A DNA stretch of 64,000 nt, from contig NZ_CP028129.1 in assembly GCF_004011095.1 (NCBI RefSeq), forward strand, positions 1,798,001 to 1,862,000, in the 5' to 3' direction. Below are positions 7,621 to 43,959 of the stretch, one piece after another (position 1 is the stretch's first letter; every line of letters begins with the position of its first letter). Made by a program: the position numbers and the translations under genes. The notes under the pieces were generated by a model. The model searched no databases. It worked only from the letters and a program-made list of their open reading frames with translations, and was not told the DNA's origin. The stretch comes from Rathayibacter rathayi. GTDB taxonomy: Bacteria > Actinomycetota > Actinomycetes > Actinomycetales > Microbacteriaceae.

Positions 7621-8112
7621 ATGACGGACCAGTCACAGGTGACCTGGATGACCCAGGAGTCGTACGACCGCCTCGAGGCGGAACTCACCGAGCTGTCCAC
7701 CGCCGGACGCGAGGAGATCGCCAAGCGCATCGAGGTCGCCCGCGAGGAGGGCGACCTGAAGGAGAACGGCGGCTACCACGCCGCGAAGGACGAGCAGGGC
7801 AAGATCGAGGCTCGCATCCGCCAGCTGACCTCGCTCCTGCGCGAAGCCGAGATCGGCACGCCCCCCGAGAGCCACGGAGTGGTCGAGGCCGGCACTATCA
7901 TCACCGCCGACATCGCAGGAGACGAGTCCCGCTTCCTCCTCGGCAACCGCGAGATGGCGGGCGAGAGCGACCTCGACATCTACAGCCCGCAGAGCCCCCT
8001 CGGCGCGGCGATCATGGGCCTGAAAGTCGGCGACACGACGCGCTTCACGGCACCGAACGGGCGGGAGATCGAGGTCCGCGTCGCCAACGTCGAAACCTGG
8101 TCGGGCCACTGA
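7621..8112 (+). CDS. greA: Transcription elongation factor GreA
   Basis: GreA enters the RNA polymerase secondary channel and stimulates cleavage of backtracked RNA. The N-terminal coiled coil is complete, with the acidic tip region EEGDLKENGGYHAAKDEQGK. The C-terminal FKBP-like domain ends SPLGAAIMGLKVGDTTRF and NGREIEVRVANVE. At 163 residues it is normal length. ATG 7621 follows a GGAG site. The stop codon coincides with the first bases of a long inverted repeat (8111-8210). Confidence 0.96.
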   Translation: MTDQSQVTWMTQESYDRLEAELTELSTAGREEIAKRIEVAREEGDLKENGGYHAAKDEQGKIEARIRQLTSLLREAEIGTPPESHGVVEAGTIITADIAGDESRFLLGNREMAGESDLDIYSPQSPLGAAIMGLKVGDTTRFTAPNGREIEVRVANVETWSGH

Positions 8113-8210
8113 TCGTGCGTCGCGGCGTCCTCCGCGGCGTTGTCGTCGGGCGCGATACCGCCGGTATCGCTTCCTCCTCCGCCTTGCGGAGAACACCGCG
8201 ACGCACGATC
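8111..8210. repeat. Long inverted repeat carrying a 56-bp dispersed element in its loop (locus 1)
   Basis: The left arm 8111-8135 and right arm 8186-8210 are 25 bases each and pair with two mismatches. The left arm begins inside the greA stop codon. The loop and inner arm edges hold a 56-bp segment (8133-8188) that recurs identically at 8247-8302 and, inverted, at 42834-42889. The segment contains the palindrome GCGATACCGCCGGTATCGC and the pyrimidine stretch TTCCTCCTC. Its position suggests a greA transcription terminator or 3' UTR structure. There is no T-run. Confidence 0.85.
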
Positions 8211-8349
8211 AGCCCACCCACGAACACGACGGGCGGCGGCGTCCTCCGCGGCGTTGTCGTCGGGCGCGATACCGCCGGTATCGCTTCCTCCTCCGCCTTG
8301 CGGAGAACACCGCGACGCACGATCAGCCCACCCACGAACACGACGGGTG
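8122..8349. repeat. Two tandem copies of a 114-bp unit between greA and ilvA
   Basis: Unit 1 (8122-8235) and unit 2 (8236-8349) differ visibly only at one base (8234 versus 8348, C/T). Each unit contains the 56-bp dispersed element and the right arm of the inverted repeat. Only unit 1 has the complete left arm; unit 2 keeps its inner 14 bases. The rest of the greA-ilvA gap up to 8451 is GC-rich with two short GCGGCG-TTCGCGCGCCT-like blocks and no gene. Confidence 0.9.
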
Positions 8350-42712: not shown

Positions 42713-42740
42713 CCCGCCACCCTACGTGCGCCCCCGCCCC

Positions 42741-42800
42741 GTGCCGGCGCAGCCGCGCCCCCCCTCTCACCGTGCCGGCGCAGCCGCACCCCCCCCTCCC
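42741..42800. repeat. Short direct repeats upstream of nnrD
   Basis: GTGCCGGCGCAGCCGC followed by a C-run occurs at 42741 and again at 42772 (31-base spacing, one A/G difference after the core). They lie immediately upstream of the nnrD start and next to the 42.8-kb inverted repeat. No function is evident. Confidence 0.7.
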
Positions 42801-42809
42801 TCCAGGGGT

Positions 42810-42913
42810 GGCGCGGGTGCTGGAGGGGGCAGTCGCAAGGCGGAGGAGGAAGCGATACCGGCGGTATCGCGCCCGACGACAACGCCGCGAATGCCCCCTC
42901 CAGCGCCCGCGCC
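42810..42913. repeat. Second locus of the 56-bp element inside a different inverted repeat
   Basis: Arms 42810-42831 and 42892-42913 pair over 22 bases with one mismatch. The arm at the right ends on the last base of the CNNM gene stop codon (42913). Between them, 42834-42889 is the reverse complement of the 56-bp segment at 8133-8188 with no mismatch. Arm sequences are unrelated to those at locus 1. Read in the direction of the upstream CNNM gene, the element has the same orientation as behind greA. Confidence 0.88.
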
Positions 42914-43959
42914 TAGCGACGGGTGGCGTCGTCGACTTCGCCGACAATCTCCTCAATGATGTCCTCCAAGAACAGCACTCCTGTGGCGCGGCCCTCCTCG
43001 TCGAACGCGCGCGCGAGGTGGGCTCCCGTGCGTCGCATGATCGCGAGGGCGTCTTCGAGGTCGGTGGCTTCGAAGATCGAGGCGAGTTGGCGGATCCGTT
43101 TGGCGGGGACGGGGAGGCGGAACTTCGCGCCTTCAGTGTCGCCGTCGAGGTCGAGGACGTCCTTGAGGTGGATGTAGCCCTCGGGGGTGCCGTCGGCGCC
43201 GAGGATCACGTAGCGCGAGAAGCCGTGTTTGGCGACGGCGCGTTCCACGTCGGCGGGGGTCGCTCCGCTGGGCAGGCTGACGATGCCGTCGAGGGGCAGG
43301 GCGACGTCGTGGACCTTCTTCTCGGTGAATTCGAACGCGGCGAGGAGGGTGCCGGTCGAGTCGCGGAGGGTGCCCTCGCGGGTGGACTGGTCGACGATCG
43401 TCTGCACCTCCTCGAGCGTGAATGTGCTGTTCGCCTCGTCCTTCGGTTCCACCTTGACGAGGCGGAGTACGCCGTTCGAGGTCGCGTTGAGCGCGACGAT
43501 GATCGGCCGGAGTACTCGGGCGATGGCGACCAGCGGCGGCGCCAGGAGCAGCACGGCGCGGTCGGGCATCGAGAACGAGATGTTCTTGGGCACCATCTCG
43601 CCGAGCACCACATGCAGGAACGACACGATCAGCAGGGTGATCACGAAGGCGACGGTGCCGGAGAACTCGTCGGGGATGCCGACGGCGTGCAGCGGCACTT
43701 CGAGCAGGTGGTGGATCGCCGGCTCGCTGACGTTGAGGATCAACAGCGAGCACACCGTGATACCCAGCTGCGTGGTCGCGAGCATGAGGGTGGCGTGCTC
43801 CATCGCAGCGAGCGCGGTGACGGCGCTGCGGCGCCCGCTCTCGGCAAGGGGTTCGATCTGGGAGCGGCGCGCGGAGATGACCGCGAATTCCGCTCCGACG
43901 AAGAAGGCGTTCGCGGCGAGGAGCACCACGAGCCAGGCGATTCCGGCCCAGTCACTCAT
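42913..43959 (-). CDS. CNNM/CBS-domain membrane protein (CorC/HlyC-like) 1
   Basis: 348 residues: a DUF21 membrane region (AWLVVLLAANAFFVGAEFAV, GEMVPKNISFSMPDRAVLLL) and a CBS pair (VALPLDGIVSLPSGATPADV, HGFSRYVILGADGTPEGYIH, GRATGVLFLEDIIEEIVGEV). It lacks the C-terminal transporter-associated CorC domain, so it is the short type. Such proteins are linked to Mg2+/Co2+ extrusion. Its start overlaps the end of the second CNNM gene by eight bases, forming a pair. Its stop coincides with the 42.8-kb inverted repeat. Confidence 0.9.
   Translation of the reverse strand: MSDWAGIAWLVVLLAANAFFVGAEFAVISARRSQIEPLAESGRRSAVTALAAMEHATLMLATTQLGITVCSLLILNVSEPAIHHLLEVPLHAVGIPDEFSGTVAFVITLLIVSFLHVVLGEMVPKNISFSMPDRAVLLLAPPLVAIARVLRPIIVALNATSNGVLRLVKVEPKDEANSTFTLEEVQTIVDQSTREGTLRDSTGTLLAAFEFTEKKVHDVALPLDGIVSLPSGATPADVERAVAKHGFSRYVILGADGTPEGYIHLKDVLDLDGDTEGAKFRLPVPAKRIRQLASIFEATDLEDALAIMRRTGAHLARAFDEEGRATGVLFLEDIIEEIVGEVDDATRR

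Follow-up and report, generated by a model that had tools for sequence, protein, structure and literature searches.

A structured hairpin element abutting stop codons in Rathayibacter rathayi, and its relatives among mobile repeats of other bacteria

The window analysed here, a stretch of 64,000 nucleotides from Rathayibacter rathayi, carries on its minus strand a gene for a 348-aa CorC/HlyC-like protein with CNNM and CBS domains (42913..43959), whose TAG stop codon, read as CTA at 42913-42915 on the plus strand, is abutted by a palindromic element. The folding strand of the element is the plus strand, on which a locus-specific left (5') arm (42810..42834) is followed by a conserved core of 54 nt, GCAAGGCGGAG ... 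GACAACGCCGC (42835..42888), containing a central hairpin (42852-42870), and then by a right (3') arm (42889..42913). As the original prediction had stated, pairing between 42810-42831 and 42892-42913 extends over 22 positions, the single non-Watson-Crick pair being a T.G wobble on the plus strand, and the element lies on a stop codon, the last base of the right arm being the last base of the TAG. Scanning the window for 22-nt arms with at least 21 of 22 positions matching around a 60-nt loop returned 42810-42913 as the sole match. The plus strand of this segment folds at -85.2 kcal/mol, compared with -47.6 ± 3.6 kcal/mol for shuffled sequences, and the minus strand at -78.9 kcal/mol. GC-rich short tandem repeats (GTGCCGGCGCAGCCGC and similar) lie beside the element at 42731-42792, and such repeats are more numerous behind corC in related species (L182, L186, L187).

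The same core is found behind greA (7621..8112, plus strand). A first copy at 8110..8211, with its folding strand on the minus strand, consists of arms 8110-8133 and 8188-8211 around a core at 8134-8187; it abuts the greA stop codon, and the TGA is contained in the left arm of the palindrome. A second unit on the same strand (8236..8349, core 8248-8301) is part of a 114-bp tandem duplication of 99% identity, and its gene-side arm pairs in the inner part only. The core identity noted at the outset was reproduced: the 54-nt core is identical in both greA-side copies at 8.13-8.30 kb and 56 nt match at 100%, while a 52-nt stretch of the window core has three matches in a search where none is expected. 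All three window copies also agree in their orientation relative to the gene, again as described. The second locus proposed from the sequence is thus real, but its scope was too narrow, since a search of the whole 3.10-Mb genome gave not two loci but at least nine copies, one of which has degenerate tandem copies next to it. With a covariance model (R1) built from eight copies of this genome, the element was found in 15/15 genomes of the genus and in 5/104 other relatives (20/119 in total); two members of the family outside the genus gave one weak match each. The arms had been called unrelated between loci, which holds by eye for corC against greA and fails for the family as a whole, because an arm family, CGCGGGTCTCCGCGCGGT and its variants, is common to many Rathayibacter copies.

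In the consensus fold, the third pair outward from the core is mismatched, mostly as G.A, and the core itself contains a 4-bp GGCG/CGCC helix, with AA bulged out on the 5' side; its asymmetric loop, GAG/GACAA, leaves GACAA unpaired on the 3' side of that helix, and its apical hairpin is variable. Among eight of the ten copies of the genome (one identical and one degenerate copy being excluded), 99.6% of 224 cells are paired, with a covariation of 0.542 against 0.161 ± 0.029 after shuffling. An alignment of 74 distinct sequences from many genera, fitted to the model, gave 95.8% of 2043 cells paired and a covariation of 0.771 against 0.200 for shuffles; the number of pairs changed on both sides in this set (22) shows no excess, as 180 of 500 shuffles reach it. 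The invariance of the core in this alignment is by construction, because the sequences were mostly found by exact core pattern. Among 57 loci found by the model, a wider motif, GCAAGGCG...CAACGCC, is present with at most four changes in 37 (11 of them exact), and 20 fall outside it. The stem stays paired while its sequence changes, in agreement with the earlier suggestion of a core presented on a stem, and core and stem of about 22 bp form one unit whose pairing is kept through two-sided changes. Protein coding by the core was considered and rejected: its length varies between 52 and 59 nt among copies, so no reading frame is kept. In several Streptomyces copies (L090, L122, L134, L157, L177, L438), a G-rich stretch, for example TGGGGGTCCCCC...GGGGGAG, follows GACAACGCCGC after 0-2 bases, which gives the impression of a further repeat inserted where core and arm meet.

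A conserved core inside varying arms had raised the idea that the core alone inserts into the loops of pre-existing terminator hairpins. Both the variation of the arms between loci around an identical core and two corC genomes (L180 and L189) with nearly identical arms around different core variants would fit such insertion; the latter pair points to exchange between copies. Comparison with orthologous sites lacking the core had been named beforehand as the test able to overturn the idea, and it was made behind greA and corC. Of the greA orthologues, 5/15 carry the element, 1/15 a remnant and 9/15 are empty; for corC, 10/14 evaluable orthologues carry it and 4/14 are empty, one more being cut by a contig end. 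By eye, wherever the core is missing the arms are missing too, and these sites show other hairpins or none, so that insertion into ready-made terminator loops is unsupported. In addition, tandem units of about 84-114 bp duplicate arms and core together, and the 181-bp units described below transpose whole. Counted from the core, moreover, the stem has a fixed length, a fixed mismatch at pair 3 and fixed wobble positions, features that unrelated terminators would not have in common. We regard loop insertion as very improbable. Across species the corC arms are partly alike and differ by paired changes. At the greA 3' site of five genomes in which the element is absent (L202 and L208-L211), a second hairpin is seen, CGCGAGATGCCACTTG...CAAGTGGCATCTCGCG and variants; a related GAGACGCCACCTG hairpin occupies this site in L203 and L204 and adjoins the element in L205. 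The repeat TGGTCGAGTAGCCCGCAGGGCGTATCGAGACC and its inverse are seen at sites without a whole element (L190, L191, L206).

The imperfections of the stem reveal which strand is kept foldable. Stem pairs 1-22 were scored in copies with gap-free pairing at 13 or more of the 22 positions, a filter that removed 13 copies in Rathayibacter. On the strand that reads GCAAGG, G.T outnumbers A.C by 289:28 in Rathayibacter (122/135 copies), 145:6 in genomes named as Streptomyces (34/41 copies), 76:4 in Streptomyces sp. SirexAA-E (14/14 distinct copies), 54:1 in genomes G119-G121 (12/22 copies) and 121:10 in the remaining genomes (36/70 copies). Other mismatches number 173, 55, 16, 27 and 90 in these five sets, respectively, and 106 of the 173 in Rathayibacter fall at pair 3. 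The GCAAGG strand is the more stable one in 121/122 Rathayibacter copies and in every scored copy of the other sets (34/34, 14/14, 12/12 and 36/36). The Rathayibacter bias persists when arms are made unique (250:25, 105 copies), amounts to 20:0 in the genome of the window taken alone (9 copies), and holds out to about pair 22 in a gap-tolerant count of 151 copies. Since a G.T on the GCAAGG strand is an A.C on its complement, only the GCAAGG strand keeps its pairing through these changes: the fold is kept on that strand only. The Rathayibacter wobbles are concentrated at pairs 6, 9-10 and 17, and the fixed positions may partly reflect shared ancestry. We read the bias as selection acting on a single-stranded fold of the GCAAGG strand, which could be either RNA or single-stranded DNA.

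Position relative to genes is equally one-sided in Rathayibacter. With genes called by a purpose-written GC3-based script, 134 of 135 copies (a count that includes orthologues and tandem copies) have a gene on the 3'-arm side, and in 123 of these that gene lies in the direction opposite to the GCAAGG strand. In 90 copies the stop codon of this gene is 8-45 nt away from the core, against four copies in which a gene is placed in this way on the left; after reduction to unique arms, the figures are 79 and 4 of 118 copies. Stops within 27 nt of the core read, on the GCAAGG strand, TCA in 48 cases, CTA in 23 and TTA in 3. The expectation that copies sit at 3' gene ends is thus borne out, in one orientation, for this genus. 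The G.T bias is indifferent to the gene on the left, being 93:3 when that gene runs away and 89:9 when it converges. Altogether, the Rathayibacter copies, which have no outer end repeats, abut stop codons, almost always oriented so that the folding strand is antisense to the gene, and recur at orthologous sites. Compact copies in Pseudomonadota (L082, L121, L163, L176) show the same arrangement, behind an IscS-like gene (L176) or an ABC-transporter gene (L082, L121); that of L163, behind an IscS-like gene, lies between this Aminotran_5 gene and a NifU_N (IscU-like) gene, with perfect 24-bp arms that include the TGA stop.

Such placement, directly behind the stop and in one orientation, would suit an RNA acting purely in cis on the sense mRNA, as a terminator or a 3'-stabilising hairpin, the more so as a fold averaging -61.4 kcal/mol is still available to the sense strand. 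It is on the opposite strand, however, that pairing is conserved (289:28), related copies are mobile, and inspection of the window and greA copies showed no T-run after either end of the hairpin, hence no U-tract and no match to an intrinsic terminator. This makes the sense-mRNA reading rather improbable.

Beyond the genus, the core was also found in Streptomyces and other Actinomycetota, in Pseudomonadota and in Lachnospiraceae. Scanning for the core pattern in one genome per species returned at least 119 stretches, and R1 matched 79 of the 80 loci supplied to it. A further model, R2, used with strict filters and at most 11 candidates scored per genome, found the element in 32/396 genomes of the phylum of the window and in 26/397 of the phylum of Thiomonas; Bacillota were covered by pattern matches and one genome. 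No match was obtained by the R2 survey in the other genomes of the window's family (8 listed). The element was present in none of the phage records, in one plasmid record (Streptomyces) and, by exact pattern, in one viral contig. Its spread across bacteria is patchy.

Longer inverted repeats, often ending in CTAG, enclose the hairpin in most of the Streptomyces copies inspected, in many others including those of Lachnospiraceae, and in some Pseudomonadota. Streptomyces sp. SirexAA-E holds 18 copies in 17 stretches, near-identical except for two or three; the six elements measured are 181 bp long, with ends CTAGGGCTTGTTTCGAAAGT or close to it. In 18 longer stretches of this genome, with genes called by the GC3-based script, the TAG at one end is the stop codon of the neighbouring gene in 11 of 20 copies, split 7:4 between the two sides, which apparently reflects a target-site effect without clear orientation. 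At the one SirexAA-E insertion examined, the left and right flanks, separated by a gap, overlap by 4 bases. The same junction is covered by one match across nearly the whole query in 34 of 60 other genomes, the others matching in parts; among 30 loci fetched, seven match the junction probe, namely SirexAA-E with the core and six without it, of which three have CTAG and three CTGA at the stop codon. These copies thus show inverted ends, a target duplication, multiple copies and, for one copy, an empty site, as a MITE of the IS5 type would. The unit between inverted ends therefore jumps, in this one Streptomyces genome, into CTAG, often a stop codon. Elsewhere in the genome lies an insertion sequence that encodes a transposase of the IS4/5 family (PF13340, PF01609) and has CTAGGCCGTGTGTCGAAAGT ends (3 mismatches), and we infer that this CTAGGCCGTGTGTCGAAAGT-ended insertion sequence probably mobilises the SirexAA-E element.

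A transposase near other copies had also been anticipated. The putative IS5-family partner of the Streptomyces class answers to this for that class only, and no transposase was prominent among neighbours elsewhere: none stood out in the largest clusters of shared neighbour frames inspected (loci L060-L179), and the same clustering, used in the search for a shared neighbour gene, gave among the inspected clusters mostly overlapping frames or common genes. Streptomyces G119 has 95 occurrences of an end repeat, allowing at most 3 mismatches; its element is 166 bp long, and several palindromes of 52-92 bp that lack the core resemble internally deleted versions of it. On visual inspection, the motif seems to recur in inverted form (as GTTGC...GCCTTGC or similar) ahead of the right end repeat at five betaproteobacterial loci (L063, L081, L089, L096, L130). 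The window copy, by eye, has no outer terminal inverted repeats, its palindrome ending at the stop codon, so its membership among MITEs is not established; nor do compact copies show, by eye and with no close filled/empty pair to compare, repeats beyond the stem or a consistent direct repeat in their flanks.

Because the strand bias is equally present in the Streptomyces class, where no clear orientation to genes is seen, a role at gene ends cannot by itself be the cause of the strand selection. The selected form might instead be a single-stranded DNA hairpin, bound as a folded strand by a protein during replication or transposition, with orientation following the replication fork. The presence of the bias in mobile copies agrees with this, as does the distribution of strands along chromosomes: the element strand splits by chromosome half in 15/15 listed copies (of 18) in G002 and in 13/14 in G004, and in Streptomyces G119 14 of 15 copies split by strand about mid-chromosome. 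Genes in G002 are co-directional by halves to about 63% (sampled, with a crude gene caller), below the split of the element. These counts are, however, inflated by orthologues and tandem copies, and the halves are not based on located origins; Streptomyces G122 shows, by eye, no such split, gene orientation is by itself a strong correlate (90:4), and no Y1 transposase of the IS200/IS605 type occurs in 15 genomes of the genus. A DNA hairpin as the selected form appears unlikely to us, if a little less so than the sense-mRNA reading.

We consider it somewhat better than an even bet, judging from comparative sequence evidence, that the element belongs to a superfamily of MITE-like repeats with a structured core shared across phyla, whose compact Rathayibacter copies have been domesticated as RNA hairpins that stop antisense transcription at 3' gene ends. 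The compact copies would descend from mobile elements and have become domesticated behind genes afterwards. Most likely, an antisense RNA entering the gene from downstream would fold the GCAAGG-strand hairpin, and the folded RNA would either end antisense transcription at the stop codon or expose the transcript to cleavage, so that the 3' end of the gene would be shielded from antisense transcription. A strong 3' hairpin, though with poorer pairing, would be added to the sense mRNA as well. Antisense stopping is consistent with the orientation of the copies, with their placement directly at the stop codon and with the fact that the left gene makes no difference. Against it stand the missing U-tract after the hairpin and the SirexAA-E copies, whose orientation to genes is not clearly biased (7:4) and whose strand bias is nevertheless the same. 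This equal bias in the mobile class is not explained by antisense stopping, so that a function of the element itself, or a role as DNA, may also be involved.

Bacterial MITEs are usually regarded as local derivatives of a single insertion sequence. Here, a core kept across Actinomycetota, Pseudomonadota and Lachnospiraceae, with differing ends and with pairing kept on one strand, implies that something in the core is selected, and suggests that the element is an unrecognised working part common to many mobile repeats. More tentatively, and with the odds against it, the core could be a portable structured module whose RNA or single-stranded DNA form is recognised by a machine conserved across phyla, that rides on many unrelated short transposons, and that serves in Rathayibacter as a 3' boundary blocking antisense transcription. 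The many natural core variants among the copies offer a resource for finding the recognising factor, and the near-fixed orientation of the hairpin in Rathayibacter makes a role in antisense transcription at 3' ends testable.

Among catalogued RNA families, Rfam 15 gave no match in the window at gathering score and only tRNA in 10 relative loci; below threshold, the window site matched only four microRNA-precursor families. The skipping-rope motif, a further candidate, was not among the Rfam outputs, and the literature matches listed for it hold nothing relevant. Searches of the open-access PMC literature returned no description of the element; subscription papers lie mostly outside it, and an earlier description may exist. 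Integron attC sites are imperfect hairpins with bulges of which one strand folds. The element resembles them in being an imperfect, bulged hairpin with one folding strand and, unlike them, has locus-specific stem ends and no invariant boxes.

The GTAG and CGTC classes of REP sequences are likewise extragenic palindromes at gene ends, and a repeat of the REP/BIME kind moved by a RAYT (Y1) transposase would account for a short palindrome at 3' gene ends, the more so as GTAG REPs can supply stop codons too, according to PMC3733652. The stems given there are of 5-13 bp for GTAG and 8-9 bp for CGTC (PMC3733652), whereas the element has a stem of about 22 bp and lacks the combination of a 5-13 bp stem with a GTAG or CGTC tag described there. 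Y1_Tnp was detected in 0/15 genomes of the genus, with a control positive in 5/14, and the mobile class has CTAG ends. A RAYT-driven repeat is, on these grounds, the least probable of the readings weighed here and extremely unlikely.

IS5-family MITEs are matched closely by the SirexAA-E copies, through inverted ends, CTAG termini, many similar copies and a similarly ended insertion sequence in the genome; the element differs from them in that the core-bearing hairpin is kept under different ends and in different phyla, and in that the window copy is without such ends. Finally, Correia elements (CREE, or nemis, of Neisseria) and ERIC elements are small palindromic non-autonomous repeats near genes, as the element is. 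According to the review PMC10969869, RNase III cleaves transcripts that contain Correia elements, and ERIC copies located at the 3' ends of genes change the decay of the mRNA. Going by descriptions rather than compared sequences, the element is set apart from both by an internal structured core found across phyla under differing ends, and by a compact class without repeats beyond the stem. With Correia and ERIC elements and REPs as its nearest kinds in the literature, we file the element as a variant of the small palindromic mobile repeats.
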